A stretch of DNA of 64,000 bases from a virus. Both the position numbers and the translations under genes were made by a program. The stretch lies in the IMG/VR virus record IMGVR_UViG_3300008267_000003, positions 62,001 through 126,000 of that record; one strand, 5' to 3'. Shown here piece after piece: positions 11,589 to 61,158 of the stretch. Each line of letters begins with the position of its first letter. Positions within the stretch are counted from its first letter, which is position 1. Under the pieces are notes generated by a model. The model saw nothing but the letters and a program-made list of their open reading frames with translations, was not told the origin of the DNA and did not search any database.

Positions 11589-12236
11589 ATGAAACTTATT
11601 AGCGAAGTATATGAAAAAGTAAATTTTCTCGTAGAAGAAAAGGAAGGTAAAAAAGACTTTTTCATAGAAGGAACTTTCATGGTTGCCAATCGAGGCAACA
11701 AGAATAATAGAATATACAAAAAAGATATTCTTGAAAGAGAAGTTCAAAGATATACTAAAGAGCACATCAACGAGAATAGGGCTTTTGGTGAGTTGGGTCA
11801 TCCACAGGGACCTACCATCAACTTAGAAAGAACAGCTATTCTTATTAAGTCTTTAAAGAGCGAGGGCGATAACTTTATTGGTAGAGCTAAAGTTATGGAT
11901 ACTCCTTATGGTAATATTGTTAAAAATCTAATGATGGAAGGTGCAACTCTAGGTGTTTCATCTAGAGGTATGGGCTCCTTAAGAATGAATGACAAGGGAT
12001 TGAATGAAGTACAGGATGACTTTTATCTTGCAACAGCAGCAGATGTAGTTGCAGATCCTTCCGCTCCAGGCGCCTTTGTTAGAGGCATCATGGAGGGTGT
12101 TGAGTGGGTTTGGGATAATGGAGTCTTAAAACCTCAAGAGGTTGAAGAGATGAAGAAAACCATCCAAAAGGCATCTAGTAGAAACCTTGAGGAAGCTCAA
12201 CTTAAGGTTTTTAAACAGTTCATCAAATCACTGTAA
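11589..12236 (+). CDS. 21: Prohead core protease gp21
   Basis: 215 residues (T4: 212). The serine-protease catalytic elements are visible: His71 in GELGHPQGP and Ser124/125 in GATLGVSSRGMGSL. It cleaves scaffold, capsid and internal proteins after small acidic motifs during head maturation. It stands in T4 order before 22 and 23. Confidence 0.95.
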   Translation: MKLISEVYEKVNFLVEEKEGKKDFFIEGTFMVANRGNKNNRIYKKDILEREVQRYTKEHINENRAFGELGHPQGPTINLERTAILIKSLKSEGDNFIGRAKVMDTPYGNIVKNLMMEGATLGVSSRGMGSLRMNDKGLNEVQDDFYLATAADVVADPSAPGAFVRGIMEGVEWVWDNGVLKPQEVEEMKKTIQKASSRNLEEAQLKVFKQFIKSL

Positions 12237-28996: not shown

Positions 28997-28998
28997 AT

Positions 28999-29074
28999 GG
29001 TGTCTTTAGTGTAGTGGCCTGCATTCGAGTCTGTGAAACTCGAGGTACGAGATCGATACTCGTAAGACACCCCA
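28999..29074 (+). tRNA. tRNA-His (GTG)
   Basis: An extra G precedes the acceptor (GTGTCTT / AAGACAC) and faces C73, the His identity pair. Anticodon loop CTGTGAA; CCA encoded. Confidence 0.92.
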
Positions 29075-29076
29075 AT

Positions 29077-29152
29077 GCTGCTTTAGCTGATGTGGTCATA
29101 GCAGGTCCCTGAAGAGGACATGAACTAGGTTCGATTCCTAGAGGCAGCACCA
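29077..29152 (+). tRNA. tRNA-Phe (GAA)
   Basis: Acceptor GCTGCTT / AGGCAGC, anticodon loop CTGAAGA, T-arm CTAGG-TTCGATT-CCTAG, encoded CCA. Confidence 0.93.
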
Positions 29153-29162
29153 AAGTTTGAAT

Positions 29163-29247
29163 GGGAGTGCGGCGCAGTTAGAGAGGCGCGGCTGACTGTA
29201 AATCAGTTCTTTCGGGTGAGTAGGTGCGAATCCTTCCACTCCCACCA
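29163..29247 (+). tRNA. tRNA-Tyr (GTA)
   Basis: Acceptor GGGAGTG with CACTCCC, anticodon loop CTGTAAA, long variable arm as in bacterial tRNA-Tyr, encoded CCA. Confidence 0.95.
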
Positions 29248-29251
29248 ATTT

Positions 29252-29326
29252 ACCTTCGTAGCTCAGTGGTAGAGCATTCGCTTGATAAGCGAAGGGTCAG
29301 TGGATCGTTCCCACTCGAAGGTACCA
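29252..29326 (+). tRNA. tRNA-Ile (GAT)
   Basis: Acceptor ACCTTCG / CGAAGGT, anticodon loop TTGATAA, encoded CCA. The T-loop reads ATCGTTC rather than TTCGANN, as does that of tRNA-Asp at 31221. Confidence 0.92.
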
Positions 29327-29335
29327 AAGGATATT

Positions 29336-29824
29336 ATGAAAAAATTACTTTTTATTTTAATGTTGTTACCATCCATTGCAAGTGCTTGTGACAGTTACGT
29401 TATTGGATTCAAAGGCATTAACAATGTATTTGATGATAACGCTTTTAGACAGTATGCAATGAAGTATAAAGCATGTTCATTAGCTTACAGTTGGAATCAA
29501 GTGCATACAGCTGTTAAATTTATTAACAGTACTAAGAAGAAGTATCAGCTGTATGGATTCAGTAAGGGCGCAGAAAGTATAGGACAGGTTTTAAAACAAG
29601 TTAAACGCAAACCATACCACGTAGTAACAATTGGTGCTTACCATACTGCGAATGTTAACTATAGAGTGTACGGTGTGTCAACGCAGAACTATTTTGACGG
29701 CTCGGGAAGTAGGAACAGGTCCCCGGGCACTCATATAAGAGGAGTAGATCACGAAGACATGCAAAGACACGTTAATAGTTACTATTTTGGTATCAAACAA
29801 TGCCAGCGGAGAAAGGGCTGTTGA
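29336..29824 (+). CDS. Exported alpha/beta-hydrolase-like protein
   Basis: ATG 29336 starts a clear signal peptide (MKKLLFILMLLPSIASAC). Near residue 74 the mature part has GFSKGAES, a GxSxG nucleophile elbow, preceded by a strand (KYQLYGF). Near 110-140 lie Asp and His residues that could complete a triad, and several Cys suggest disulfides. At 162 residues it is small for the fold. It is likely a periplasmic esterase- or lipase-like enzyme of unknown substrate. Confidence 0.6.
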   Translation: MKKLLFILMLLPSIASACDSYVIGFKGINNVFDDNAFRQYAMKYKACSLAYSWNQVHTAVKFINSTKKKYQLYGFSKGAESIGQVLKQVKRKPYHVVTIGAYHTANVNYRVYGVSTQNYFDGSGSRNRSPGTHIRGVDHEDMQRHVNSYYFGIKQCQRRKGC

Positions 29825-29849
29825 CTTATTTTTGTGCTTGAGAGATAAT
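29821..29849 (+). promoter_or_regulatory. Sigma70-type promoter
   Basis: TTGACT at 29821-29826, a 17-base spacer and GATAAT at 29844-29849. It may drive the next gene, tRNA-Glu, the second large RNA and tRNA-Asn as one transcript, since no terminator lies between them. Confidence 0.8.
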
Positions 29850-29880
29850 ACATTTGTAACCATTGATAAAGGATAACATT

Positions 29881-30303
29881 ATGAAATTAGCTGCCGGTAA
29901 GTATGTGATTGCAGACCCCTGCTACATCCTCAATGAGGAAGTGTACTTCAGACTGCTGAAAGAAACCAACTACTTCATGTACGAAGCTGTTGAACGTGGT
30001 GGTGTAATGTCAGACAGTGAGACGGGAAAGTTCTTTGCTGTATTCAGTACCAAGTATGGTGATGGCACATACAGGGATGGTAAGGGATTCAAGTATGGTG
30101 TAGATGCAGGTTGCATTGCATGTATCCCTGCTGAGATGTGTGATCTGAAAGAAGACCGTGAGTACATCAACGAAGTAACTTTTGCTAGAGACTTCGAGGT
30201 ACGGTACGAGGATGGTTTGATTATATTTGGAGATGTAATTATTAATACTGATCCAGATGATTTTTATGATGATGAGGAAGAAAGCTACGAAGATGTAGCG
30301 TAA
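29881..30303 (+). CDS. Conserved phage protein of unknown function, 140 aa
   Basis: ATG 29881 follows AAAGGA. The opening AAGKYVIADPCYILNEE and the GVDAGCIACIPAEMC segment belong to a family found in many phages and some bacteria, with no assigned function. The C-terminus is a run of Asp and Glu. The start is set by the ribosome site and lies 32 bases after an early promoter. Confidence 0.65.
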   Translation: MKLAAGKYVIADPCYILNEEVYFRLLKETNYFMYEAVERGGVMSDSETGKFFAVFSTKYGDGTYRDGKGFKYGVDAGCIACIPAEMCDLKEDREYINEVTFARDFEVRYEDGLIIFGDVIINTDPDDFYDDEEESYEDVA

Positions 30304-30312
30304 GGTTTTAGT

Positions 30313-30387
30313 GCACCGTTCGTCTATCGGTTAGGACATTGCCCTTTCACGGCAGTAAGAGGAGTTCGATTCTCCTACGGTGTACCA
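30313..30387 (+). tRNA. tRNA-Glu (TTC)
   Basis: Acceptor GCACCGT / ACGGTGT, anticodon loop CTTTCAC, encoded CCA that also opens the 18-bp stem of the second large RNA. Confidence 0.95.
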
Positions 30388-30879
30388 TTTGATATGCTGG
30401 TTGTAAGCCATGGGCCGCAAGCCTGAGTAACTATCACAATATCTGGTTATCTCGAGTAACTCCAGTGAGTCGATAGCAAATAGTGCAGCCAGCATTTCAA
30501 ATGGTAACATAAAGGTTTGGCAGGAGCAGAGTCCAGTGGGAAGGACGACTAGGGGCCTGTAAAAACAAAGTAGTGAAACAATGGTATATCAACCATCAAA
30601 GTAGCGAACAGCCCTTATAGTAAACGGAGTAGCGGGAGAGAGTGATGTCTCAATGTGTCTACACCGGCCAAAAGAATCCCGTAGTCCCGTCTACGTTATT
30701 AACGGGGGTGTATTGGCACTAACCAGAACGCCAGGGTGCATACGATCACGGACCTCAAAACTCACTGACATGAGTGATAGAAACATCGTAGGTGGGTATC
30801 ACACCTTGTTTAACCAAAAGTAAATGTGATGGACAGAGTAACTGCTCAGGAGGGGGCTTATGGGAATGAGTAGCCTTCC
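30385..30879 (+). ncRNA. Large structured noncoding RNA 2 (same family as RNA 1)
   Basis: About 495 bases between tRNA-Glu and tRNA-Asn without a supportable gene. An 18-bp stem with one T-T mismatch (30385-30402 with 30487-30504) opens it. Then come ATGGT / ACCAT near 30582-30597, CCCGT / ACGGG and GTAG / CTAC nested near 30679-30705, ACTCA / TGAGT near 30761-30777, ATCACA / TGTGAT (30798-30803 with 30825-30830) and a terminal stem (30849-30860 with 30871-30879). The block GATGGACAGAGTAAC matches RNA 1 at 14 of 15 positions. The 3' end lies 8 bases before tRNA-Asn. Confidence 0.78.
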
Positions 30880-30887
30880 AAGATTAT

Positions 30888-30964
30888 TGACCAGTAGCAC
30901 AGTTGGTAGTTGCATCTGACTGTTAATCAGAATGTCGGTGGTTCGAGCCCACCCTGGTCAGCCA
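30888..30964 (+). tRNA. tRNA-Asn (GTT)
   Basis: Acceptor TGACCAG / CTGGTCA, anticodon loop CTGTTAA, discriminator G and encoded CCA. RNase P cleavage here would define the 3' end of the large RNA. Confidence 0.95.
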
Positions 30965-30980
30965 AATTAGAAAGGGTAGT

Positions 30981-31220
30981 ATGTGGGAAGTAATATTTAC
31001 GTTCTTAGCGTTATTCTTTACAGATATATTTTACACATACTATCTAAGATCAATACAGAATGAGCAGCCACTTGCATCTAGTATATGGGCTGTGATTGTA
31101 TTTGCTGTTGCCAGTGTAGCAGTAATCAACTATACTACTAATCACTGGCTTCTCATTCCTGCATGCCTAGGTGCTTTCTGTGGCACTTACGTAGGTATGA
31201 TTCTGAGGAGAAAGAAATAA
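30981..31220 (+). CDS. Small membrane protein, 79 aa
   Basis: Three hydrophobic segments (VIFTFLALFFTDIFYTYYL; IWAVIVFAVASVAVINY; LLIPACLGAFCGTYVGMIL) and a basic tail RRKK indicate a small inner-membrane protein. AAAGGG precedes the ATG. The stop codon directly abuts tRNA-Asp. Confidence 0.6.
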   Translation: MWEVIFTFLALFFTDIFYTYYLRSIQNEQPLASSIWAVIVFAVASVAVINYTTNHWLLIPACLGAFCGTYVGMILRRKK

Positions 31221-31295
31221 GGTTCCAAAGTGTTCATGGACGCACACGACACTGTCACTGTCGAAGAAGGGGATCGTTACCCCTTGGGACCGCCA
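31221..31295 (+). tRNA. tRNA-Asp (GTC)
   Basis: Acceptor GGTTCCA / TGGGACC, anticodon stem CGACA / TGTCG with loop CTGTCAC, T-stem AGGGG / CCCCT, discriminator G and encoded CCA. The T-loop ATCGTTA is unusual, which would make automated detection weaker. Confidence 0.85.
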
Positions 31296-31331
31296 TCATA
31301 TATACATTATTGTTAACTTCCAAAGGTAATA

Positions 31332-32120
31332 ATGAAAGCACTAATACTTTCCTTTGCGTTGCTGTTCAGTACCAACGTCCTGTCAGCAACCCAGTACGTA
31401 TATAACTATTCAAAAAATGAAATTGTGATAGATGAAGGTTCAGATAAGGTAAGACCCATTGCAAGTGTTACAAAGTTGATGACTGCTATTGTAATCCTTG
31501 AAAGTGAAGTTAGCCTAGATGAAAAAGTTCCTTATAAAGGATTCAAGAACATTCCATCCAAGCAAAGAACAAGAGACGAGTTGTTAGCTCTCCTGCTGAT
31601 TAAGAGTGACAACAACGCTGCAGAAGCTCTTGCAAGAAGTTTTCCAGGTGGTAGAGATCATTTTATTGATATGATGAATGTAACATCCAAGTTCCTGGGC
31701 ATGGAGTATACTACGTATGATGATCCTTCTGGTCTTAGTCCTAGAAATCAAAGTACTGCAAAAGATCTTACAAAGCTGTTGCATTATGCTTCGACCTACC
31801 CTAAAATCAAACAGATTGCTTCTATGACTAGCTTCATGTTGGTAGAACCTTCTGTAAAGAAGGCAACAGCAAAGAAGAAGAAAAAGAAAGCAAGAACATT
31901 CAGTAGTTATAGAGTGATTACAGTAAACAATACTAACTTTCATCTACTGAATGAATACGAAGAGATTGAGATCTCCAAGACTGGATACACCAATCCAGCT
32001 GGTAAGTGCTTAACAATGTTTGTTACTAAGAATGGTGAGCATTTTGCAGTTGTTATTCTTGGTGAGCGTAATATGAGAGATGTAGAAAAAGTATCAAGAA
32101 AGATTTTAGATAATCTGTAG
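31332..32120 (+). CDS. D-alanyl-D-alanine carboxypeptidase-like protein (PBP, peptidase S11)
   Basis: 262 residues with a signal peptide (KALILSFALLFSTNVLSA). The three penicillin-binding motifs are intact: S45-V-T-K48, S92-D-N94 and K216-T-G218. It lacks the C-terminal membrane-anchoring extension of DacA, so it is probably free in the periplasm. A basic run of six lysines at 181-186 is unusual. It likely trims peptidoglycan stem peptides of the host. Its stop codon gives the first base of tRNA-Thr. Confidence 0.87.
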   Translation: MKALILSFALLFSTNVLSATQYVYNYSKNEIVIDEGSDKVRPIASVTKLMTAIVILESEVSLDEKVPYKGFKNIPSKQRTRDELLALLLIKSDNNAAEALARSFPGGRDHFIDMMNVTSKFLGMEYTTYDDPSGLSPRNQSTAKDLTKLLHYASTYPKIKQIASMTSFMLVEPSVKKATAKKKKKKARTFSSYRVITVNNTNFHLLNEYEEIEISKTGYTNPAGKCLTMFVTKNGEHFAVVILGERNMRDVEKVSRKILDNL

Positions 32121-32193
32121 CCCTTTTAGTTAAATGGTATAACACTTGATTTGTAATCATGGATTGGCAGTTCGATTCTGTCAAGGGGCACCA
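32120..32193 (+). tRNA. tRNA-Thr (TGT)
   Basis: Acceptor GCCCTTT / AAGGGGC, anticodon loop TTTGTAA, T-arm GGCAG-TTCGATT-CTGTC, encoded CCA. It begins on the last base of the preceding stop codon. Confidence 0.92.
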
Positions 32194-32194
32194 T

Positions 32195-32271
32195 CTGAGT
32201 GTAGTTCAGCCTGGTAGAATGCCTGCTTTGGGAGCAGGAGGTCGGGAGTTCGATCCTCTCCACTCAGACCA
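32195..32271 (+). tRNA. tRNA-Pro (TGG)
   Basis: Acceptor CTGAGTG / CACTCAG, anticodon stem CCTGC / GCAGG with loop TTTGGGA, encoded CCA. Confidence 0.93.
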
Positions 32272-32286
32272 ATTATAGGAATGGTT

Positions 32287-32649
32287 ATGACTAAATTATT
32301 TGGTAAAGTTGATAAGGGTTGGGGCCATGAACTTATATGGGCATCGACCGATCAGTATTGCTGCAAGTTTTTAAACTTTGATAGACCAGCAGCAAAGACA
32401 TCAATGCATTATCATGAACATAAAGATGAACAGTGGTATGTTCAGAGTGGTAGGTTTCAGGTCGACTGGATTAATCTAGAAGATGGTTCGACAAAGTTTT
32501 GTAATCTTGAGGTAGGAGATACATGGCATAATTATGCTGGTACACCTCATAGGTTAGTTTGTATTGAACCTGGAACAGTAGTCGAAGTGAGCACTGCTGA
32601 TAGTGTTGAGGACAACTACAGGATTATTCCTGGCGATAGCCAGAAATAA
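32287..32649 (+). CDS. Cupin-fold protein, mannose-6-phosphate isomerase type II-like
   Basis: ATG 32287 is better spaced from AGGA than ATG 32281. The 120-residue protein has the cupin metal motifs: SMHYHEHKDEQWYVQSG (motif 1) and GDTWHNYAGTPHRLV (motif 2). It opens like the C-terminal domain of mannose-1-P guanylyltransferase/isomerases (GWGHELIWA). A role in sugar metabolism is plausible beside the glycosyltransferase at 38364. Confidence 0.75.
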   Translation: MTKLFGKVDKGWGHELIWASTDQYCCKFLNFDRPAAKTSMHYHEHKDEQWYVQSGRFQVDWINLEDGSTKFCNLEVGDTWHNYAGTPHRLVCIEPGTVVEVSTADSVEDNYRIIPGDSQK

Positions 32650-32658
32650 TAAACAAAT

Positions 32659-32740
32659 GCGCATGTGGTGAAATGGTAGACACGCTAGTCTTAGGAACTA
32701 GTCTTTCGGGGTGGGGGTTCGAGTCCCTCCATGCGCACCA
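32659..32740 (+). tRNA. tRNA-Leu (TAG)
   Basis: Acceptor GCGCATG / CATGCGC, anticodon stem CTAGT / ACTAG with loop CTTAGGA, variable arm, encoded CCA. Confidence 0.94.
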
Positions 32741-32790
32741 CACACTCGCGTTTGTTGACCGCGTATAATAGGATAAGTTGTCAACATCTA

Positions 32791-32864
32791 GCCTCGTTAG
32801 TTTAATGGTAGAACTCCATCCTTACACGGTGGTTACGGTGGTTCGATTCCATCACGAGGCACCA
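32791..32864 (+). tRNA. tRNA-Val (TAC)
   Basis: Acceptor GCCTCGT with ACGAGGC, anticodon loop CTTACAC, T-loop TTCGATT, encoded CCA. Confidence 0.94.
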
Positions 32865-32871
32865 AATTAAA

Positions 32872-32957
32872 GCCCGGGTGGTGGAATGGTAGACACAGCA
32901 GACTTAAAATCTGCCGCTTGAAAGGGCGTACCGGTTCGAGTCCGGTTCTGGGTACCA
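32872..32957 (+). tRNA. tRNA-Leu (TAA)
   Basis: Acceptor GCCCGGG with TCTGGGT (three G-U pairs), anticodon loop CTTAAAA, long variable arm, encoded CCA. Confidence 0.93.
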
Positions 32958-32969
32958 ATAGGAGATGAT

Positions 32970-33170
32970 ATGAGTATAGTGCTTCGAAGAGATCAGATAG
33001 AAAAACTAATTGACATTTATAATCACTTTCATGAGATACAATCGTTTACTATCTCTCTGGATGATAATTCTGATATGATATCAATCAACTTCGATATTAA
33101 CGATGTTAAAGCAGATTACAAACCAAGTGAAAAGTTTGATAAACCCTTCAAGCCTATGGTGTTTAAATGA
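32970..33170 (+). CDS. Hypothetical protein, 66 aa
   Basis: GGAG precedes ATG 32970. The N-terminal half is helical (RDQIEKLIDIYNHF), then two short strands and a Lys/Pro-rich tail. Not recognised. It overlaps the next gene by 4 bases. Confidence 0.5.
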   Translation: MSIVLRRDQIEKLIDIYNHFHEIQSFTISLDDNSDMISINFDINDVKADYKPSEKFDKPFKPMVFK

Positions 33171-33367
33171 AAATAGAACTCAGTGATGATACAGTCAATC
33201 GTCTCATATGGGATGTTCTATATGAAGACCTCAAAATTTTTAGAGTAGACTTGAATCGACTGGATAGTATGTCTATACTCAATGAAGCAGATCGTAGAGA
33301 TTACAAAGACTACCTAAGATATATCAACGCTCTTGAAACTCTTTTAGAGTATTATAGCGTTAAATAA
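33167..33367 (+). CDS. Hypothetical helical protein, 66 aa
   Basis: Starts in an ATGA overlap with the previous gene. It is all-helical and acidic (NEADRRDYKDYLRYINALET). The function is unknown. Confidence 0.5.
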   Translation: MKIELSDDTVNRLIWDVLYEDLKIFRVDLNRLDSMSILNEADRRDYKDYLRYINALETLLEYYSVK

Positions 33368-33371
33368 ACAC

Positions 33372-33446
33372 CTGGCGTTCGTTCAACGGATAGGACAGGA
33401 GTCTTCTAAACTCTTAATGGGGGTTCGATTCCCTCACGCCGGACCA
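33372..33446 (+). tRNA. tRNA-Arg (TCT)
   Basis: Acceptor CTGGCGT / ACGCCGG, anticodon loop CTTCTAA, T-arm GGGGG-TTCGATT-CCCTC, encoded CCA. It reads AGA, the Arg codon favoured in this AT-rich genome. Confidence 0.93.
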
Positions 33447-33452
33447 ATCAAT

Positions 33453-33526
33453 GCGGGATTAGTTTAATGGTAAAACAGCAGATTTCCAATCTTCGGTTAT
33501 CAGTTCGATTCTGATATCCCGCTCCA
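33453..33526 (+). tRNA. tRNA-Gly (TCC)
   Basis: Acceptor GCGGGAT / ATCCCGC, anticodon loop TTTCCAA, discriminator T and encoded CCA. Last tRNA of the run. Confidence 0.93.
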
Positions 33527-51430: not shown

Positions 51431-51596
51431 CATATTCTGGTTTCTGATTATGTTCACAATAGTATTCTCCATATCAACTTTCTTTCTAACAGTTAACCAT
51501 GTCATTAGTTATGTTAGCAGGTTGTTTGATTTACCTATGGTTGTAATCTATACGATGATAGAAAGACAAAATGAGGCTGAGGACGAGAAAGTTTAA
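51408..51596 (+). CDS. Small membrane protein, 62 aa
   Basis: ATG 51408 overlaps the end of gene 41. The first 35 residues are hydrophobic (IFWFLIMFTIVFSISTFFLT), then an acidic tail. Its 3' end overlaps the SprT-like gene by 26 bases. Confidence 0.5.
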   Translation: MLLNRLVSIFWFLIMFTIVFSISTFFLTVNHVISYVSRLFDLPMVVIYTMIERQNEAEDEKV

Positions 51597-52047
51597 TAAT
51601 CGAAAGCTATCCAGTATACTTCGAACAGCAACTAAATTTTATATTCAACACCTACTTCCAAACTATAAACACAGTCTTTTCAAAATTGACATAATTGGTG
51701 TAAAAAATTTAGAAGCGGATGGTACATTCGAGAAAATATCAACGAACAGATATACTATAGAGCTGAGGACTGATTTAGATATACAAATAATGCTACTAAC
51801 GCTTGCTCATGAATTGGTTCACCTTAAACAATATGCAACCAATGAATTGAGAAGCCGGGTGGTTGCTGGCCAGCTTGTTGATATATGGAAAGGCAAGCGG
51901 TACAGGAATCTCAAATACGATGACCAACCGTGGGAGATAGAAGCGTTACAAAAAGAACAAGATTTGTTCGAAGATTTCATATCCGAGTGTTATGCGTCTG
52001 GAAAATTGATAAATAAGCTAGTGAAACTGCGCGGTTTCACCCGTTGA
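51571..52047 (+). CDS. SprT-like zinc metalloprotease domain protein
   Basis: 158 residues with AHELVHLKQYA near 88-98, giving HExxH, and an acidic helix (EDFISECYAS) that could supply the third ligand region. SprT-like proteins of this size occur in many marine phages; the substrate is unknown. Confidence 0.72.
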   Translation: MRLRTRKFNNRKLSSILRTATKFYIQHLLPNYKHSLFKIDIIGVKNLEADGTFEKISTNRYTIELRTDLDIQIMLLTLAHELVHLKQYATNELRSRVVAGQLVDIWKGKRYRNLKYDDQPWEIEALQKEQDLFEDFISECYASGKLINKLVKLRGFTR

Positions 52048-52100: not shown

Positions 52101-52604
52101 ATGTCTAAGACTTTTGTTGCTATTTTAGCAATGTATTTTATTTTTGTGATTAGCAATGACCCAGCAGAGAAACGTGCAGTAATCCAGCCCGCGCAGACGT
52201 TATCTCCTGATATGATGAATCTACTATCAACAGCTAAGAAGTATACTAACTATCAGGGAACTCTTAGTCTACCGCACGTCAGCGAGGTTTCTCAGAAAAA
52301 GCTAGAGGAGATGTACTGCAATAACCGTCCTCGCTGTCCAGTATCTGCTCTTTACTTCCAAGGTCAGATATTCTACAGTGACCGTCTAGATATGCAGGAC
52401 TTGTTATCACGTTCTATCCTCCTCCATGAGTTCGTACACCACGTACAGAATGAAAGACACGGTGATACATACGATTGTGATATGTGGAAAGCAAAAGAGT
52501 TAGAAGCATACAAAATACAAGCTCAGTTTCTTAGGAAACATGGATATAATGACCAAATCATTCGCGATGTTGTAAAGACATTGAGATGCCCTATTAAAGG
52601 ATAA
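52101..52604 (+). CDS. Exported or membrane-anchored HExxH peptidase-like protein
   Basis: 167 residues. The N-terminal hydrophobic segment (TFVAILAMYFIFVIS) is a signal or anchor. LLHEFVHHVQ near 114-123 gives the HExxH metal motif and a Glu-rich helix (KAKELEAYKIQAQF) follows. Four Cys in the mature part could form disulfides. It likely acts in the periplasm. Confidence 0.65.
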   Translation: MSKTFVAILAMYFIFVISNDPAEKRAVIQPAQTLSPDMMNLLSTAKKYTNYQGTLSLPHVSEVSQKKLEEMYCNNRPRCPVSALYFQGQIFYSDRLDMQDLLSRSILLHEFVHHVQNERHGDTYDCDMWKAKELEAYKIQAQFLRKHGYNDQIIRDVVKTLRCPIKG

Positions 52605-52606: not shown

Positions 52607-53176
52607 ATGACAAATAAAGTGAGTGAAACCACTGCAGCTACAGCGCAAGATGATGTTGATTTGCTATTATATAAATCTGGATCGTTTTATCTTTCCGGTG
52701 ACATCGATGAACATTCTGTTTCAGATTGCATAAAGTGGATACTGGCTGAAAATATGGCCAACCGTCATACGCATCTGAACTTGTACATAAACAGTCTTGG
52801 TGGTGACCTATACCAGGCTTTTGGTCTTATTGACCTGATAAAAGCTAGTAGAATTCCTGTACACACAATAGGCGTAGGTAGTTTGATGAGTGCTGCATTT
52901 CTTATCTTTATTTCTGGTTCAAAAGGCAATCGAATTATGACTAAAAATACTAGCGTCATGTCTCACCAGTTCTCAACCTATTATGAGGGTAAAGAACACG
53001 ACGTTAAAGCTTCAGAAAAAGAAACTAGATATATTAAGCAGCGTATGTTAGATGTTATTAAACAAAGCTGTACAATGGACGAGAGAATGATAAAGCGAAA
53101 GCTACTTCCACCATCCGATGTCTGGCTATCTGCAGATGAATGCGTGGAGTTAGGTGTAGCAGATGCAATCTTCTAG
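52607..53176 (+). CDS. clpP: ClpP-like protease
   Basis: 189 residues. The ClpP core reads INSLGGDLYQAFGLIDLI, the Ser nucleophile lies in GSLMSAAFLI near residue 94, the His in SVMSHQF near 119, and a late Asp in the PPSDVWLSADE segment may complete the triad. No partner ATPase lies nearby, so it may pair with host ClpX or ClpA, or act alone. A terminator follows. Confidence 0.85.
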   Translation: MTNKVSETTAATAQDDVDLLLYKSGSFYLSGDIDEHSVSDCIKWILAENMANRHTHLNLYINSLGGDLYQAFGLIDLIKASRIPVHTIGVGSLMSAAFLIFISGSKGNRIMTKNTSVMSHQFSTYYEGKEHDVKASEKETRYIKQRMLDVIKQSCTMDERMIKRKLLPPSDVWLSADECVELGVADAIF

Positions 53177-53184: not shown

Positions 53185-53207
53185 ACCCACTTCGGTGGGT
53201 TTTTTTA
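53185..53207 (+). terminator. Intrinsic terminator after the clpP-like gene
   Basis: ACCCAC / GTGGGT (53185-53190 with 53195-53200) with a TTCG loop and seven T residues. Confidence 0.9.
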
Positions 53208-53210: not shown

Positions 53211-53218
53211 TATAAATA
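53211..53218 (+). promoter_or_regulatory. T4-type late promoter of the internal-protein cassette
   Basis: Exact TATAAATA, 25 bases before the 53243 start and just after a terminator. Confidence 0.78.
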
Positions 53219-53242: not shown

Positions 53243-54253
53243 ATGAAATCATTTTTTCAATTCATTTTAGAATCAGTTTTAGTTGAGAAAGCACCTACAC
53301 CATCAACAGGTGCTCTCGAAGCAGCTAATAAAACAAACACAGCATTCGGAGATGCTTATGAGACAGCAACTGTCCTTCTTCTTCATAATAATACAGCTGC
53401 CCAGCATAATAAAGATAAAAACTACCTAGCTTCCATTGAGCATGTGAAACAAAAACATGAAAAAGCTATGGCCAGTCTGCCTTCTAATAAAGCAGGTGAT
53501 GCGCTCACGTTTGCAAGACGATCAGTGCATGCATATCTTGGAACACTATCGCATCAGGGCATTACTCAAGATCATATACATGAGGTTCATCATACAAGCC
53601 AAGGTATCAGTTCACATTTAGGTAAAACAGTCGATAGAGCAAGTAATCCTCACGATCTGTTAATAAAGGGTTCTAAAGATGGTAAATCTTTCATGCACGG
53701 TGCATCTCTCAAAGCTAAATCAGGTACTGCATCAAACAATTCAGTAGCTGCTTTTGAAAGAGCAAGTAATGCAGGTGATTCAAAACTTGGAGTAAAGACT
53801 AATATTTCTAAGCATTGGGAAGAAGGTAAGAAGAATGCTGGGTTGGTTGGTAAGACTGCTAAAGCGATAAAAGAACTACGCCATGATCCAGAAGTCAAAG
53901 AAGCTAATAGAAAAACTCAAAATGCATCAGCTGGTACACATGCAGAGGATTTTAACAACGCTAGTCACGAGGCTAAGCAGAAACACATGCTACACTTCTT
54001 AAAAGCAAATCCAATCCTTCCATACCATTATGTTGTTGGTAATAAGGGTACATCAACACCTATCAAAACACATCCAGCTGTTCAAGCTATCCACAATTCC
54101 AAATCATTAACTGCCACTACAAAGAACAATGTAGTTCATTTCCACAATGAAAAAGGTGAACACATTGCTTCTGCTGAGCATAGAACAACTCATGGACCTT
54201 TTGTGAGTCCACAAGTTAATTTTAAATTTGGAACAATGAAAGCTGCAAAATAA
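53243..54253 (+). CDS. Putative packaged nuclease-like protein with capsid-targeting N-terminus
   Basis: 336 residues. The start MKSFFQFILESVLVEKA resembles the T4 internal-protein targeting peptide, which gp21 removes. In the mature part, DLLIKG near 137 and GASLKAKSG near 153-161 could be the D and xxK halves of a PD-(D/E)XK nuclease site; this is only a motif reading. Late expression is supported by the promoter at 53211. Confidence 0.6.
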   Translation: MKSFFQFILESVLVEKAPTPSTGALEAANKTNTAFGDAYETATVLLLHNNTAAQHNKDKNYLASIEHVKQKHEKAMASLPSNKAGDALTFARRSVHAYLGTLSHQGITQDHIHEVHHTSQGISSHLGKTVDRASNPHDLLIKGSKDGKSFMHGASLKAKSGTASNNSVAAFERASNAGDSKLGVKTNISKHWEEGKKNAGLVGKTAKAIKELRHDPEVKEANRKTQNASAGTHAEDFNNASHEAKQKHMLHFLKANPILPYHYVVGNKGTSTPIKTHPAVQAIHNSKSLTATTKNNVVHFHNEKGEHIASAEHRTTHGPFVSPQVNFKFGTMKAAK

Positions 54254-55419
54254 TGCGTCATATATTCTATCTACTGAAAGAATCAGCAGCCAACGAAGAG
54301 AAGTTAAAGCATCTTGAGCATGCAGAAGACCATCCTATCAACGCTGGTGTTGATGGATACAAACATGCTGTCAACACTCTTACCGCTGTACATAAAACAC
54401 TCACAGGTCAAAAGGGTGGTGCTGATCTAATGACCAAATATGATGGCAGTCCGAGTATTGTATTTGGACATCATCCACAGACTGGTAAGTTCTTTGTTGC
54501 ATCCAAATCTGCGTTCAACAAAGATCCAAAGATTAACTATACTGACGAAGACATTGAAACTAATCATGGTCATGCTCCTGGTCTAGTATCTAAACTAAAG
54601 ACCGCACTAGCCCATCTTCCAAAAGTTAGCCCTCAGAAAGGCGTCTTTCAAGGAGATGTGATGCATACATCTGAGGATGTGGAAGAGAAGGGTGGTAAGG
54701 TTCACTTTAAACCAAATCTAATTAAGTACTCTACACCAGCCGACTCAGCAGAAGGTAAGAAGATTAAGAACTCCAAGATTGGTGTTTATGTCCATACAGG
54801 ATATGAGGGTGGTGATGTTGAGTCCATGAAAGCAAACTATACTCCAAATCTTTCTGGTTTTGCTAACCACGACAGTGTCCATATGATGAAATGGGGATAT
54901 GACACAAAGAATTCAGACTATAATGAAGATGCTCAGAAGCAATTTAAAAGACATTTAGAAGATGCAACGGATGTTGGTAAGAAACTAAAACCTAAAGATT
55001 ATGCAGCTATTGAACCTCACACCGAACATATAAAAACTTACATCAACAAGACAGTAAGAGATGATTCAACCCCTACTGCAGAAGGTTTGTATGATCATGT
55101 CAGAGACCAGCATGAAAAGGGTATTGAAAAGGTCAAAACTCAAAAAGCAAAAGATCAAAAGACTCAAGCAATGAATACGCAGCTAGGTCATATAAGAGCT
55201 AACACTGAGGCTATCAGCAATGTGTTTGCAATGCATCATCACCTACAGAAAGCAAAGGATGTATTAGTCAATGCTATGTCTCATGGCCAAGACTTCGAAC
55301 ATCATATTGGTGATACAAAAACAAAACCAGAAGGATTTGTTGCTGTTGTAAATAATAGACCAACTAAGCTGGTTGATAGAAACGAGTTTAGTAAACAGAA
55401 TTTCTTAGCGAGACAATAA
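54253..55419 (+). CDS. KxDG-type covalent nucleotidyltransferase (RNA-ligase-like)
   Basis: 388 residues. MTKYDGSPSIVFG near 60-72 holds K62-x-D-G, the lysine-adenylation motif of ligases. A GVFQGDVMH strand (motif III-like), EGFVAVV near 360-366 (motif IV) and TKLV with K372 (motif V) complete the set. The short leader MRHIFYLLKESA suggests packaging in the head. The start overlaps the previous stop (TAATG). A polynucleotide ligase or repair role is inferred. Confidence 0.65.
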   Translation: MRHIFYLLKESAANEEKLKHLEHAEDHPINAGVDGYKHAVNTLTAVHKTLTGQKGGADLMTKYDGSPSIVFGHHPQTGKFFVASKSAFNKDPKINYTDEDIETNHGHAPGLVSKLKTALAHLPKVSPQKGVFQGDVMHTSEDVEEKGGKVHFKPNLIKYSTPADSAEGKKIKNSKIGVYVHTGYEGGDVESMKANYTPNLSGFANHDSVHMMKWGYDTKNSDYNEDAQKQFKRHLEDATDVGKKLKPKDYAAIEPHTEHIKTYINKTVRDDSTPTAEGLYDHVRDQHEKGIEKVKTQKAKDQKTQAMNTQLGHIRANTEAISNVFAMHHHLQKAKDVLVNAMSHGQDFEHHIGDTKTKPEGFVAVVNNRPTKLVDRNEFSKQNFLARQ

Positions 55420-56024
55420 TGAAAAGATTCTCTCAATTCATAGCTGAGGCAGTGCAGAAGAAAGCATTGCATGTTTTTGATATTGATGATACTCTTATGC
55501 ATACAACGGCAAAGATCCACGTTAAGGACCCTCAAGGTAAGGTAGTAAAGACTCTTACAAATCAAGAGTTTAACGATCATAAGCTACCTGCAGGACACAG
55601 CTACGACTTTGGTGAATTCAGAAACGCTGAGAAGTTTAATAAAGAGTCTAAGCCAATGCCGCACATGATCAACCATGTGAAGAAGCTGACATCTGATCCA
55701 AGCAATCATGTTATATTTAATACAGCACGTGCTAACTTTGATGATAAGAATACTTTCTTGCATACCTTCAAGAAGCATGGTATTAATATGAACAAGATTC
55801 ATGTTATCAGAGCAGGTAACCTCAATAAAGAGGGTGCCCCTGCTGAGAAGAAAGCTGTAGTCATTCACGGCTACATAAAGAAGCACAAGTACAATGATGT
55901 CCATATGTACGACGATAGCAAGACTAATCTAAAGTCTTTTGTTGGATTAAAACAGGCTCATCCAAACACAACATTCCATGCTCATCACGTTGAGGGTGAG
56001 AATGTAACAACGAAGGTAGTATAA
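55419..56024 (+). CDS. HAD-family phosphatase with capsid-targeting N-terminus
   Basis: 201 residues. MKRFSQFIAEAVQKKA is very close to the T4 internal protein III leader, with the gp21-type site IAEA. HVFDIDDTLMHT at 18-29 supplies the two catalytic Asp (D21, D23); FNTARANF is motif II and MYDDSKTN motif IV. It resembles the phosphatase half of polynucleotide kinase-phosphatases. Its last base is shared with the next start. Confidence 0.75.
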   Translation: MKRFSQFIAEAVQKKALHVFDIDDTLMHTTAKIHVKDPQGKVVKTLTNQEFNDHKLPAGHSYDFGEFRNAEKFNKESKPMPHMINHVKKLTSDPSNHVIFNTARANFDDKNTFLHTFKKHGINMNKIHVIRAGNLNKEGAPAEKKAVVIHGYIKKHKYNDVHMYDDSKTNLKSFVGLKQAHPNTTFHAHHVEGENVTTKVV

Positions 56025-56632
56025 TGAAAAGATTTACCAATTTCCTCCTAGAAGGAAAAGATAAGACTGCGGTTCTACTATTTGGTAGAATGAATCCCAT
56101 TACTAGTGGTCATGAGGAGAACGTAGAAGCTGCCCATGATCTGGCAAACTCTCATGATGGCCACCTTCATGTTGTTGCTAGTGGTTCACATGATGAGAAA
56201 AAGAATCCTCTTTCACCAGAACAAAAGCAAAAACATTTGCAGCGTGCATTCGGACACTTAGACAGTACAACAATTACTACAGCATCTAAATCAAAACCAA
56301 CAATCATGCATCATGCATCTGATATTGCTAAGACAGGTGTTAAGCATCTAGTGATTGCTGGTGGTAGTGACAGGGCAGAGGAGTATAAAACGTTGCTCAA
56401 TAAGTATAATGGAGTCAAAGGAAAAGCTCATGGTGAGTATCACTTTGATTCAATTACAGTAAAGAATACCGGTGAACGTAAGGCTGGTGTTAGTGGTACT
56501 GATATGAGAAATCATGCTTCAGGTGGTAACTACGGTAAGTTCAAAGCTGGACTTCCAAGTAAAATCAAGAAGAATGAGAAGTACTCAAGAGATATGTACA
56601 ATGATGTAAGATCGGGAATGAATATTAAATGA
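56024..56632 (+). CDS. Cytidylyltransferase-like protein with capsid-targeting N-terminus
   Basis: 202 residues. The leader MKRFTNFLLEGKDK is followed at once by AVLLFGRMNPITSGH (16-30), the nucleotide-binding motif of NMN/pantetheine-phosphate adenylyltransferases, and a late GVSGTDMR matches the ISSTxxR motif. The substrate is unknown. It ends in a 4-base overlap with the fibre gene. Confidence 0.75.
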   Translation: MKRFTNFLLEGKDKTAVLLFGRMNPITSGHEENVEAAHDLANSHDGHLHVVASGSHDEKKNPLSPEQKQKHLQRAFGHLDSTTITTASKSKPTIMHHASDIAKTGVKHLVIAGGSDRAEEYKTLLNKYNGVKGKAHGEYHFDSITVKNTGERKAGVSGTDMRNHASGGNYGKFKAGLPSKIKKNEKYSRDMYNDVRSGMNIK

Positions 56633-59600
56633 CTACAAAGATCACTGCTGATAACATTGAGCAAACTACACTTGCCACACTTTCAGGTGGTCCAGCAATT
56701 GCTAATATTCAGATTGCAAATTCATCATACGGTCTATTAGATGATACTGCTGTGAATACAGCTGGTGGCTATGTGGTAATTAATGGAACTAAGTTTTCGA
56801 ATGGATGTTCTGTCCTTATAGGTAACACTGTAGCTACAACTGTTACGTTTGTATCAGCTACTCAGGTTAGAGCTCAGGTACCTGCAAAGGTTGGAGCTTC
56901 ATATGTGGTGTATGTGACTAATCCGGATGGTGGTACTGCTATTGCAGTAAACGGTCTTACATATAGTAACACTCCTGTTTGGGCTACAAATAGTACATTG
57001 ACCCCGGGTGCTGTTGATGAGGCTATTAGTATTAATTTATCTGCCCCTTCAGATTCCAACGTTGTTTATTCTGTTGCTGCAGGTAGCTCGCTTCCATCTG
57101 GTGTGTCATTAGCTTCAAATGGATTGTTGAGCGGCACTATCACTGGTATATCAGAAGAAACCACTTATAACTTTACCGTGGATGCGATCGACGTTGAACT
57201 ACAGGATACGTCTAGATCATTTAGCATAACTATTATAGCTGGTGATCAATACTACAAAAACACAACATTACATTTGAATGGTGAAACAGCATCTAATACA
57301 TGGATCATAGATGCTAGTACTAATAAGTTTCCAATCACCGTTGCTGGTGATACTAAGCCCGTAGGATTTAGTCCATATGAAACTATTTGGAGTAATTATT
57401 TTGATGGTGCCGGGGATGACTTAACGATCCCTACGAACTCGGCTTTCACTTACGGTACTGGAGATTTTACCATAGAAATGTGGGTGTATATAACAGCCAA
57501 TCCAGGCGATTACGCTTATTTTTATGCCCAAGGGCCTAACACAACTGCGTCTATGTGTTTATATATTCAAAGTGGGAAATTCAATGTTTGGAACGGATCC
57601 AACATTATTGTTGGATCAACATCATATTCACTGAACAGGTGGTATCACGTTGCGTTAAGTAGATCGGGAACATCTTTAAAATTGTTTTTGAATGGTGTTG
57701 AAGATGGATCTGCAACAAATAGTAGTAATATAACAACCGGGTCTACATATGGTTCAACCATCGGTCGTTGGGTAGAAATTGTAGATAATCGTTATTTCAC
57801 TGGATACATCTCAAATGCTCGTGTCGTTAAAGGCACTGCACTCTACACAGCAAACTTCACTCCACCAACCTCACCATTAACCGCAATCACAAACACCAGT
57901 TTATTAACCTGTCAAAGTAATAGATTAAGAGATGCTAGCACAAATAATTTTACAATTACAAGAAACGGTGATGTATCAGTAAGTAATTTTGGTCCTTTTG
58001 TCGAAACTGATTTAATTACTGGTAGTGCATTTTTTGATGGCACAGGGGATTATTTAAATGCAGGTACTACTCAACTTTGGACTCCTGCTAATAGTTTTAC
58101 TGTAGAAAGCTGGTTTTATATTACTTCTTTTGGTGGTAACACTAGAGGGCTTTTTGCTAAAGATGCTGGTACCTCAGGTTCCTCTAGAGGCATATCGATT
58201 TACGTAAACACAAATGGATCGGTAACTGTATTTTATTCATCATCTGGATCAGACGAATTATCTGCAACTTCTGTTTCTTCTGGTTTAGTAACAGTTAATC
58301 AATGGTATCATTTTGCTTTTGTCAAAAACGGAAGTAGTTGCACTCTTTATTTAAATGGATCTTCAGTATTATCCTTCACTTCAGCAACTATTGCGTGTCC
58401 CGTATCTCCATCAAATTTAATCGGTGCGTTTACAAATGGATCAACTGCTTTAAATATGCTAGGGTATATGAGTGATTTTAGATTGGTTTCAAACACAGCA
58501 GTCTACACTTCAAACTTTACACCACCAACCACACCATTAACTGCAATTGCAAACACAAGTTTACTCACACTACAATCTCGTATTGGCGAAAACAATAATC
58601 GTTTTGTTGATACTTCTGGATTGAATAATATTATCACTAGAAACGGTAATACAACACAAGGTACATTTAGTCCATATCAAAGAGGTGGTTGGAGTGGTTA
58701 TTTTACGGGATCATCAACAAGTTACATATCGACACCATCGACAACATTATTAAATCAAGGACAAACATACACTGTACAGTGTTGGATATATCCAACATCA
58801 TTTACAACATCAACTAGCGCTGTTCGTAGAATGTATCTGTTTGTTAAGGGTGTTATTTACGCAGGTTTATCAATACATAGTGACGGAACATTAGGTTGGT
58901 ATGGTTGGCCTACTCCTGGTGGAATGATAGCTACTTCAGCGGCAGGAACAATCACAACTAATTCTTGGCAGCATGTTGCACTCGTTGTTAATCCCGGCAA
59001 CTATATTAAGTTATTTAAAAATGGTGTAGAAGTAGGAACAGCGAGTTATACTGCTGCAGGCGCAGATGGATCAGCGATAATAATAGGGCATGGTGATACA
59101 GGTCAAGGTACCGATGGATTCATTGGATATATTAGTAATTTTAAGATAACCCAATCAGCATTAACCGGTGGTCAATTGGATTATTCCACCACACCAACAA
59201 TTTCCTCACCAACAGGATCCTCGTTATTAACATTGCAAACGAATCAATTCAATGATACAAGCAACTATAATTTATCTATAACACCAGCCGCAGCTGCATC
59301 AGTACAACCATTTAGTCCATTCAAAACGCATACGATAACAGCTAATACTCTTAGTGTTTTTTTTAATGGTACTGGAGACTTTTTAAGTGTTCCTGTAAAT
59401 ACTGCTTTTCAATTTGGAACTGGAGATTTTACAATTGAATGCTGGTGGTATCCGACAAGTTTAGCAACATTCCAACCTTTGATTTATCATACTGATGACA
59501 GCGGCGTTGCTGGAACAGGAGAGTATGTATTAGTTTATAATACAACTTTAGGAATGAGGTTTTATATAAACGGTGGAACAACAACAATAACACAAGGAAA

Positions 59601-61158
59601 TACTACAGGATGGTCTACAAATTTGTGGTACCATGTAGCAGCAGTTAGAAACGGAAATACGTTAACGATTTATAGAAACGGAATTTCTATTGCAAGCGGT
59701 AGTGTTTCGGGAATTACTATTGGTGCAAGTGTACTAACTTACATAGCCGGAGAACCATTTGATCCAGGATATATGACAGGGTATATTTCGAATGTTCGTA
59801 TCGTTAAAGGAACCGCAGTCTACACTTCAAACTTTACACCACCAACCTCACCATTAACCGCAATTGCAAACACCAGTTTATTAACCTGTCAGTCGAGCAG
59901 TATAATTGACAATAGCACAAATAATTTTGCAATTACAAGAAATGGTAATGCTAGAGTTACTACTGTGAATCCATTAGGATTTACCGTAACTAATTTATCA
60001 GGATCATCGGCGGATTATTCCATCATTGACGAAGGTGGTAGTATGTACTTTGATGGCACTGGTGATTATTTGGCAACTGCGGATAAAGTTGATTTAAGAC
60101 CAGGAACTTCCAACTTTACTTTAGAAGGTTGGATTTATCGTGATGTTGCTGGTGCAGCACACACCATATATGCAAAAGGTGGAGCGTCAACAGGTATTTT
60201 ATTACAAGTCACATCTACAAATGTATTGAGGTTTACTCATACAACAACTAATATAGATTCTACTATAACTATACCAGCAAAATCTTGGACTCATGTAGCA
60301 GTGGTACGTAGTGGCACTTCAACAAATCAAACTAAACTCTATATTAATGGTGTATTTGCAGCACAAGGAACAGTAAGTACTGATTTCACACAAACAGAAG
60401 AAGCTAGAGTTGGAACAAACAGAGCTGCTGGTGAAAACTTTAATGGTTATATTTCCGCATTGAGATTCTTAAAAGGTGTTGATCATTACACTTCTGGATT
60501 TGTACCACCAGCTGCACCACTAACACCCATTGTAGGAAGTACTTTATTGTTGAATGGTACTAATGGTGGTGTTTTTGATTACACTAGAAAAAATAATTTA
60601 GAAACAGTTGGTGATATTAAGATCAGAAACAATATTGTTAAGTATGGTAACACATCAATGTATTTTGATGGTACTGGAGATTATTTAAAAGCATCAACAT
60701 CCGACATGGGTAATTTTGGCACAGGAAATTTTACAATTGAGATGTGGGTGTACTTTAACACTGTTTCAGGAACACAAAATTTAATTGATTTTAGAACAGC
60801 AACAAATGATGTTGCTTTAACAATCGCCTTAGCGAGTAGTGCTATAATATTATATGTAACCGGGTCTACAAGAATAACAACATCAACTTTGTCTGCTACA
60901 ACTTGGTATCATATCGCGTGTGTTCGCAGTTCTGGTGTTACAAAAATTTATATCAATGGAACTCAATCTGGATCTAATTATACCGATACCAATTCTTATG
61001 TAGGAAAGGCAAATAGGCCTTTGATCGGCGAATTGGCTGATGGAACTACACCATTACAACCATTAAATGCTTATGTTGACGATCTTCGTATCACCAAAGG
61101 TGTTGCAAGATACACCGCAAACTTCACAGCACCTACATCAGCTTTACTGACCAGATGA
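56629..61158 (+). CDS. Giant LamG-repeat tail fibre or adhesin, 1509 aa
   Basis: An IPT/TIG-like domain occupies about residues 20-110 and a second Ig-like domain 120-205. Six LamG (concanavalin-like) domains start near 256, 467, 690, 909, 1139 and 1342, each marked by a motif like YFDGTGDYL and a GYISNxRxVKGTAVYT end. They are linked by FTPPTSPLTAIANTSLLT. LamG domains bind sugars, so this is probably a host-recognition fibre. Linkers are near identical at DNA level between some repeats. Confidence 0.85.
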   Translation: MTTKITADNIEQTTLATLSGGPAIANIQIANSSYGLLDDTAVNTAGGYVVINGTKFSNGCSVLIGNTVATTVTFVSATQVRAQVPAKVGASYVVYVTNPDGGTAIAVNGLTYSNTPVWATNSTLTPGAVDEAISINLSAPSDSNVVYSVAAGSSLPSGVSLASNGLLSGTITGISEETTYNFTVDAIDVELQDTSRSFSITIIAGDQYYKNTTLHLNGETASNTWIIDASTNKFPITVAGDTKPVGFSPYETIWSNYFDGAGDDLTIPTNSAFTYGTGDFTIEMWVYITANPGDYAYFYAQGPNTTASMCLYIQSGKFNVWNGSNIIVGSTSYSLNRWYHVALSRSGTSLKLFLNGVEDGSATNSSNITTGSTYGSTIGRWVEIVDNRYFTGYISNARVVKGTALYTANFTPPTSPLTAITNTSLLTCQSNRLRDASTNNFTITRNGDVSVSNFGPFVETDLITGSAFFDGTGDYLNAGTTQLWTPANSFTVESWFYITSFGGNTRGLFAKDAGTSGSSRGISIYVNTNGSVTVFYSSSGSDELSATSVSSGLVTVNQWYHFAFVKNGSSCTLYLNGSSVLSFTSATIACPVSPSNLIGAFTNGSTALNMLGYMSDFRLVSNTAVYTSNFTPPTTPLTAIANTSLLTLQSRIGENNNRFVDTSGLNNIITRNGNTTQGTFSPYQRGGWSGYFTGSSTSYISTPSTTLLNQGQTYTVQCWIYPTSFTTSTSAVRRMYLFVKGVIYAGLSIHSDGTLGWYGWPTPGGMIATSAAGTITTNSWQHVALVVNPGNYIKLFKNGVEVGTASYTAAGADGSAIIIGHGDTGQGTDGFIGYISNFKITQSALTGGQLDYSTTPTISSPTGSSLLTLQTNQFNDTSNYNLSITPAAAASVQPFSPFKTHTITANTLSVFFNGTGDFLSVPVNTAFQFGTGDFTIECWWYPTSLATFQPLIYHTDDSGVAGTGEYVLVYNTTLGMRFYINGGTTTITQGNTTGWSTNLWYHVAAVRNGNTLTIYRNGISIASGSVSGITIGASVLTYIAGEPFDPGYMTGYISNVRIVKGTAVYTSNFTPPTSPLTAIANTSLLTCQSSSIIDNSTNNFAITRNGNARVTTVNPLGFTVTNLSGSSADYSIIDEGGSMYFDGTGDYLATADKVDLRPGTSNFTLEGWIYRDVAGAAHTIYAKGGASTGILLQVTSTNVLRFTHTTTNIDSTITIPAKSWTHVAVVRSGTSTNQTKLYINGVFAAQGTVSTDFTQTEEARVGTNRAAGENFNGYISALRFLKGVDHYTSGFVPPAAPLTPIVGSTLLLNGTNGGVFDYTRKNNLETVGDIKIRNNIVKYGNTSMYFDGTGDYLKASTSDMGNFGTGNFTIEMWVYFNTVSGTQNLIDFRTATNDVALTIALASSAIILYVTGSTRITTSTLSATTWYHIACVRSSGVTKIYINGTQSGSNYTDTNSYVGKANRPLIGELADGTTPLQPLNAYVDDLRITKGVARYTANFTAPTSALLTR
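57817..57915 (+). repeat. LamG linker repeat, copy A
   Basis: About 100 bases encoding the end of LamG 1 and the linker. They closely match 59788-59890, especially from TTCGT..CGTTAAAGG to the end of ACCAGTTTATTAACCTGTCA. Confidence 0.75.
59788..59890 (+). repeat. LamG linker repeat, copy B
   Basis: This copy lies at the end of LamG 4 and shares long identical runs with the copy after LamG 1. A weaker copy lies at 58480-58570. Confidence 0.75.

Follow-up and report, generated by a model that had tools for sequence, protein, structure and literature searches.

A predicted ligase-fold protein of the DUF6267 family with a capsid-targeting-like N-terminus in a T4-like virus

Introduction

What is the role of a viral protein that carries the motifs of a nucleic acid ligase and begins with ten residues resembling a capsid-targeting propeptide of phage T4? 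The question is raised by an open reading frame (ORF), hereafter the target, at positions 54253-55419 of the window studied here, a 64,000-nucleotide stretch (positions 62,001 to 126,000) of the 162-kb IMG/VR virus record IMGVR_UViG_3300008267_000003. Coordinates are those of the window unless the record is named. The original prediction described the target as an RNA-ligase-like protein of an unassigned family which, together with a neighbouring HAD phosphatase and a nucleotidyltransferase, might form an RNA or DNA end-repair pathway, perhaps directed at host defences that cut tRNA or make nicks. A family can in fact be assigned: scanned against Pfam, the target matched DUF6267 alone (E 1e-98), and in PHROGs it matched phrog_455 (E 4.5e-92), both families of unknown function. 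On balance, we lean towards DUF6267 being a minimal enzyme of the ligase superfamily that would seal nucleic acid, be packaged by means of a T4-type propeptide and be injected with the DNA.

Results

A predicted ligase core in a family of unknown function

The target and the elements recognized within it are the following.

54253..55419, + strand: target ORF, predicted ligase-fold DUF6267 / phrog_455 protein, 388 amino acids, ATG start
within 54253..55419, + strand: motif I (K62-x-D64-G65), motif IV (E360-G-x-V363) and motif V (K372), from the alignment
within the target, + strand: S84-K85 (motif Ia-like) and Q133-G-D135 (motif III-like), the names Ia and III being assigned in this analysis
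54925..55278, + strand: helical insertion ahead of motif IV, residues 225-342 (~118 residues), from the secondary structure of the model

A sequence search of the PDB with the target found no match, its sole NCBIfam match was far under the cut-off (18 versus 150 bits), and no paper using the name DUF6267 was found in the literature searched.

K62-Y-D-G, E360-G-F-V and K372 lie where the original prediction had placed them. The family alignment has 66 rows, counting the query, and identity to the query goes no lower than 29%. Its invariant columns are, among others, K62, D64, G65, K85, Q133, D135, G177, H181, Y184, E360, G361, V363, K372 and R376. The motifs were then searched as patterns in 271 family ORFs, made up of the main family set and the ORFs of later loci, with near-duplicates among them so that rows are not independent. 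KxDG[AS]P was present in 271/271, as were EGxV (two rows flagged by the pattern read EGYVL and were counted) and a lenient motif V, and Q[GA]D was present in 270/271. As in the covalent nucleotidyltransferase (ligase/capping) superfamily, motif I thus holds an invariant lysine, and motifs IV and V follow downstream in order. Because residues of catalytic type are invariant across proteins as divergent as these, the conservation argues that DUF6267 is likely an active enzyme.

An AlphaFold2 model of the target built from the 66 rows had a mean pLDDT of 91.7 and a pTM of 0.88, residues 1-13 being of low confidence. Foldseek matches of this model in the PDB were weak, the best being DNA ligase 3rr5 at E 0.026 with no row at E 0.001; rows 1-6 were ligases, and rows 7 and 8 unrelated proteins. 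VIA-align 2, run on the 1000 best Foldseek candidates, returned 359 chains with Z of at least 2, and the best 50 of the 359 were without exception ligases, with 13 entries for a single Naegleria enzyme and many for human DNA ligase 1. The top match was the Naegleria gruberi RNA ligase 6vt9 (Z 9.2, 3.6 A, 182 residues), and the entries below it included Trypanosoma brucei REL1 1xdn (Z 8.1, 3.9 A, 190 residues), T4 Rnl2 2hvr (Z 7.4, 3.8 A, 175 residues), a fungal Trl1 (Z 7.3, 4.7 A, 204 residues), T4 Rnl1 5tt6 (Z 7.2, 4.2 A, 177 residues) and DNA ligases at Z 6.6 or lower. Since Z values below 8 can reflect a common arrangement, we give most weight to the highest-scoring rows and to how uniform the list is. 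For comparison, the protein encoded at 53243, given the same treatment with a poorer model, produced a mixed list with a best Z of 5.7. In a viral structure library the target matched same-family phage proteins, some of which bear the annotation cytidyltransferase; matches to viral RNA ligases began at E 0.08.

The ligase core expected by the original prediction is therefore present in the predicted model, and a ligase / covalent nucleotidyltransferase core fold is supported by these structural comparisons. Assuming a gapless C-terminal alignment, E360 and K372 would fall within one residue of E312 and K326, which the titles of the Naegleria entries mention. With the Naegleria enzyme, T4 Rnl2 and REL1 the target shares the predicted core and the same order of K-x-D-G, E-G-x-V and the motif V lysine; it differs from all three by lacking a domain after motif V and by having the helical insert and the capsid-targeting-like N-terminus, and its sequence is not significantly similar to that of T4 Rnl2. 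T4 RNA ligase 1 (Rnl1, gp63) resembles it in fold and, at low confidence, in a motif alignment, but has a C-terminal domain that DUF6267 lacks and itself starts without a tag.

Propeptide-like N-termini on four consecutive genes

The target is the second in a row of four ORFs with one-base overlaps between neighbours, and all four start with a sequence of the same kind (a slash marks the expected cut); the head protease is listed after them.

53243..54253, + strand: 336-aa protein of no known family (no Pfam, PHROGs or NCBIfam match), N-terminus MKSFFQFILE/S
54253..54282, + strand: capsid-targeting-like propeptide of the target, MRHIFYLLKE/S (hydrophobic residues at 4 and 7, L8, E10), from the positional match
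55419..56024, + strand: HAD phosphatase (DIDDT), polynucleotide-kinase-phosphatase-like, N-terminus MKRFSQFIAE/A, phrog_415 at E 4e-9
56024..56632, + strand: HIGH-motif nucleotidyltransferase (PITSGH ... SGTDMR), cytidylyltransferase/CoaD/NMNAT-like, N-terminus MKRFTNFLLE/G, conserved DUF6267 partner
11589..12236, + strand: gp21-type head maturation protease, expected to cut propeptides, phrog_207 at E 3e-75

The N-terminus of T4 IPII and IPIII, read from NC_000866, is MKTYQEFIAE/A. According to PMC9026906, in the part used here, residues 1-10 of IPIII are enough for incorporation into the head, positions 4 and 7 serving targeting and positions 8 and 10 processing, and fusions enter the head and reach the cell. 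Asp at position 10 of IPIII is reported there to block cutting while leaving targeting intact. A pattern built on these positions was found in 5/72 + strand window ORFs of at least 80 aa, against 0.12 expected from shuffled N-termini, and at 0/368 internal methionines. With a looser tag pattern the figures were 5/75 ORFs against 0.42 expected, and 2/370 internal methionines. Over the 162-kb record, scanned in separate stretches so that a few ORFs near stretch ends were cut or counted twice, the positional pattern occurred in 7/212 ORFs, namely the four of the operon, uvsX and two short ones of 88 aa (at 126147) and 82 aa (at 1666); an eighth ORF fits only the looser pattern. The 88-aa ORF (record 126147-126413, just past the window) begins with the propeptide-like MLSFLEYIAE/A and belongs to phrog_7595.

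Besides the gp21-type protease, the head genes present include gp22 (phrog_237, E 7e-84), gp20 and gp23. A PADLOC run on the four tagged operon proteins gave no match. Like the T4 internal proteins IPI, IPII and IPIII and like Alt, the target begins with a propeptide-like segment that fits the positions used in T4 for targeting and for processing (PMC9026906, in part). Alt is moreover a packaged and injected enzyme (T4 record note; same source). The difference is in the putative cargo, which would be a ligase-fold enzyme and its partners and not IP proteins or an ADP-ribosyltransferase.

The target might instead transfer a nucleotide onto a protein or small molecule in head assembly, or serve mainly inside the head to organise the DNA packaged there. 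An effect on head assembly is described for T4 IPIII (PMC9026906, in part), and the T4 record annotates Rnl1 also as a tail-fibre attachment catalyst. Of the tagged proteins, three have a strongly basic pI of 9.6-9.7, and the mature target one of 8.3. Against such a role stand the invariance of the catalytic-type motifs and the structural matches listed, which are ligases only, and we hold it to be rather improbable.

Conservation of the tag among DUF6267 relatives

Three scans of viral contigs yielded 230, 347 and at least 600 confirmed candidate DUF6267 stretches, and the best 80 of each were taken. The second set is of marine cyanophage type and the third of pelagiphage/Methylophilales type; the sets may overlap and hold near-duplicates, so loci are not independent. 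DUF6267 ORFs below 360 aa were dropped before counting (241 to 235).

On DUF6267 itself, the loose tag pattern was found in 71/73 ORFs of the first scan and 52/79 of the third. The positional test gave 64/73 and 53/79. The two first-scan ORFs lacking the tag are L066, which is cut near a contig end, and L044, a fusion. In the second scan and in four named records DUF6267 is itself untagged (0/78 and 0/4). For comparison, the loose pattern fits 26/9562 internal methionines and 160/1510 other ORFs of the loci studied. In the second scan the tag sits on the next gene: all 70 downstream partners detected by motif pattern carry it (70/70, in a set that held 78 DUF6267 ORFs). Two further starts were read individually, MMKFTQFLAE/S for DUF6267 of phage DLP6 and, as a near match by eye, INFSKYITE/D for Melnitz-3. 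A literature search for a capsid targeting sequence in cyanophages yielded a T4 review only.

The L044 fusion (2430-6197 of its locus, 1255 aa) consists of an N-terminal HIGH-type nucleotidyltransferase, a basic middle and KEEFIIEA directly before the DUF6267 domain, as if an internal propeptide-like segment in a polyprotein-like chain were there for the head protease to cut. An ORF in locus L003 that resembles the 88-aa phrog_7595 ORF ends in RARHNC...YWSC, a stretch also found inside the L044 fusion.

A conserved partner and the question of end repair

Where the flanking sequence reaches 3 kb or more to the left and to the right of the locus, the partner is fused to DUF6267 or lies at most 1.5 kb downstream in 79/81 (31/31, 32/32, 4/4 and 12/14), and phrog_455 spans both the DUF6267 and the partner domains. 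In P-HM2, DUF6267 is T4-GC71 and the next gene T4-GC190, the partner. This is the family and partner order of the window; the cyanophage copies of the second scan tag the partner only, and those of P-HM2 and S-PM2 neither. Mass spectrometry of purified virions of S-SM1 detected T4-GC190 (PMC3037559, in part).

Matches of the partner to NMNAT, CoaD and cytidylyltransferase models are weak, and it is probably a small-molecule nucleotidyltransferase. An end-repair nucleotidyltransferase of polymerase type was rejected for 56024, which is of HIGH type. An NMNAT recycling NAD+ for an NAD+-dependent ligase was also considered and not adopted, as TxGH and the CoaD matches leave the substrate ambiguous. 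A literature search on a cyanophage DNA ligase with a cytidylyltransferase found nothing.

The original interpretation is thus partly supported: the model upholds the ligase core, and an end-repair pathway of the target and its neighbours is plausible. The HAD protein does resemble phrog_415, annotated 'polynucleotide kinase', and two relatives match likewise; the nucleotidyltransferase, in contrast, is of HIGH/cytidylyltransferase type, and the HAD gene is found in a minority of loci.

The partner also brings in a different possibility, that the ligase-like protein and the HIGH-type enzyme work together on a cofactor or other small molecule, perhaps by adenylyl transfer around NAD- or CoA-like compounds, in a pathway that seals no nucleic acid. 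The weak NMNAT, CoaD and cytidylyltransferase matches and the close linkage would suit it, but all 50 solved relatives listed are nucleic-acid ligases, and we give this pathway little credence.

A proposed packaged ligase and the observations to be set against it

From motif conservation, predicted fold, the positional propeptide match and partner linkage, all established by computation, we infer how a packaged sealing enzyme might work. K62 would be nucleotidylated, most likely with AMP, in a pocket lined by D135 (of the QGD segment), E360 and K372; the nucleotide would pass from K62 to a 5'-phosphate, and the end or nick would then be sealed. The first ten residues of the target would act as a T4-type capsid-targeting propeptide, by which the prohead core would take in the target along with the HIGH-type partner, the HAD phosphatase and the 53243 protein. 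Cutting by gp21 after Glu10 would release mature enzymes, which would be injected with the DNA and act at the very start of infection. The simplest substrate would be damaged nucleic acid, either nicked DNA of the phage or tRNA that has been cut. Phages are known to counter tRNA cutting with RNA ligases (PMC9503650, in part). The window holds 24 tRNA genes (24977-33526, all on the + strand), and DLP6 has 30 (PMC5349666, in part).

Several observations weigh against this proposal, and those on the ligase side concern known families. Comparison by hhalign was not significant with 25 Rnl1 sequences (probability 1.5-1.9%, P 0.034-0.025), with 14 Rnl2 sequences (probability 0.1%) or with a single gp30 sequence, nor did it become so with the helical insert omitted. 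The two sets were drawn from 34 Rnl1 and 31 Rnl2 sequences, the Rnl2 row L310 being dropped for an in-frame stop. The low-confidence Rnl1 alignment (P 0.025) did line up KYDGS with KEDGS, the following SK, and EGFVAV with EGYVAV. The Rnl1 and Rnl2 families have a specific C-terminal domain after motif V, where ATP-dependent DNA ligases have an OB-fold domain. The target ends 16 residues past K372, with one helix there in the model, so that the OB domain and the C-terminal domain of the Rnl type are both missing. Profile searches of the window's record with PF09414, PF01068 and PF01653 found no match; PF09511 found none either, but since it also found none in control genomes its absence is uninformative. 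By the tests run, DUF6267 is, as modelled, a divergent, minimal ligase-fold family outside the Rnl1, Rnl2 and gp30 families.

On the packaging side, the fifth window ORF matching the positional pattern is uvsX, by chance or shared ancestry, and because uvsX fits too the tag pattern alone is no proof. In the third scan 27/79 ORFs fail the loose pattern, mainly through truncated or shorter N-termini. P-HM2 has the tag on neither DUF6267 nor the partner, the S-PM2 fusion of the two is untagged, and HTVC008M has only a short variant, NDLLVE/D. T4-GC71 is not named among the S-SM1 virion proteins in the part of PMC3037559 used here. Finally, a relative of the HAD gene occurs in 7/31 first-scan loci and 0/50 others, counted with the same flank requirement as the partner.

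Alternatively, DUF6267 might act inside the cell as the missing replication and repair ligase of cyanomyoviruses, working beside gp43-uvsX-gp41 to seal Okazaki fragments or nicks, with packaging secondary or absent. Homologues of g30 (DNA ligase) are described as absent, or distant and unidentified, in cyanomyoviruses (PMC2984593, in part), only a few genes separate DUF6267 from the gp41 gene upstream of it in the cyanophages inspected, and 9/11 DUF6267 records searched, some of them fragments, lack PF01068, as does the window's record. In the other two of the 11, PF01068 stands alongside DUF6267, and in DLP6 a tagged DUF6267 coexists with a gp30 ligase (PMC5349666, in part); the propeptide would be without purpose, and the OB domain is lacking. 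We consider this role unlikely, if less so than the head-assembly and cofactor alternatives. As a general rule, replacement of gp30 by DUF6267 is rejected because the two records and DLP6 carry both.

Surroundings of the operon

Two elements were noted between the upstream gene and the operon.

53185..53206, + strand: terminator-like hairpin ACCCAC-TTCG-GTGGGT followed by a T run, by eye
53211..53218, + strand: TATAAATA, a T4-late-promoter-like box ending 25 nt before the ATG of 53243, from the sequence

We take TATAAATA to be the T4 late-promoter sequence. It occurs 6 times in the window against 5.4 expected by chance, hence without over-representation, with all 6 on the + strand; 3/6 end 25-31 nt ahead of a listed ORF start (5443, gp22 at 12283, and 53243). 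In the 10-70 nt upstream of DUF6267, ATAAATA was found at 11/71 first-scan, 5/78 second-scan, 19/78 third-scan and 1/4 named ORFs, the random rates being 1.0, 2.9, 1.3 and 2.5% for these sets; the second-scan excess is weak.

For the 53243 protein, relatives were found in five other loci only, and a comparison with phage records gave no match. E40, D138, S155 and K157 are invariant in 5 sequences, with a weak PD-(D/E)XK-like hint; its model (pLDDT 76, pTM 0.66) gave weak, mixed fold matches such as HinP1I (Z 5.4 at 9.0 A, 185 residues). The gene before DUF6267 varies between phages (L002-L101), many being nuclease-like by eye and some having a propeptide. A Pfam scan of ten such upstream neighbours detected no nuclease.

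Just upstream of the operon, 52607-53176 encodes a ClpP/head-maturation-protease-like serine protease, besides the gp21 at 11589. Two small proteins (51571-52047 and 52101-52604) have HExxH-like motifs by eye, HELVH and HEFVH, and weak or borderline DUF matches that include one putative metallopeptidase family. On the other side, a 1509-aa protein with six Laminin_G_3 stretches (56629-61158) overlaps the operon end by 4 bases.

Distribution of DUF6267

By tblastn, DUF6267 relatives were detected in 466 of 50,697 phage records, for the most part of marine T4-like phages, with Synechococcus and Prochlorococcus phages in the majority; the other carriers are Pelagibacter and Methylophilales phages and a few phages of Vibrio, Pseudoalteromonas and Stenotrophomonas. 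A profile search of T4 and of Sinorhizobium phage phiM12 found no DUF6267. Bacterial and archaeal genome contigs held 38 DUF6267 loci (L316-L353), mostly in bins and one in an isolate, Nonlabens xiamenensis, on a 188-kb contig. These are probably phage contigs binned with cells.

Discussion

The capsid-targeting context is, in our view, a larger finding than the ligase core. Extended to the family, it suggests, as a tentative proposal about which we are more doubtful than about the packaged enzyme of this phage, that T4-like aquatic phages inject a sealing complex, made of the minimal ligase DUF6267 and a cooperating HIGH-type nucleotidyltransferase, with the tag on one or both in most lineages sampled. 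If true, this would be a ligase module delivered by the virion and ready before phage gene expression, conserved in marine cyanophage-, pelagiphage/Methylophilales- and freshwater-type relatives. Our literature searches found no description of such a module.

The ligase-fold assignment opens a direct biochemical test of DUF6267, which becomes a concrete candidate for the ligase reported missing from cyanomyoviruses by a 2010 review (PMC2984593, in part). A further suggestion from the propeptides is that sets of enzymes enter the cell together with the DNA of aquatic T4-like phages, as Alt and IPI do in T4. With enzymes delivered in this way, repair or counter-defence could precede transcription.

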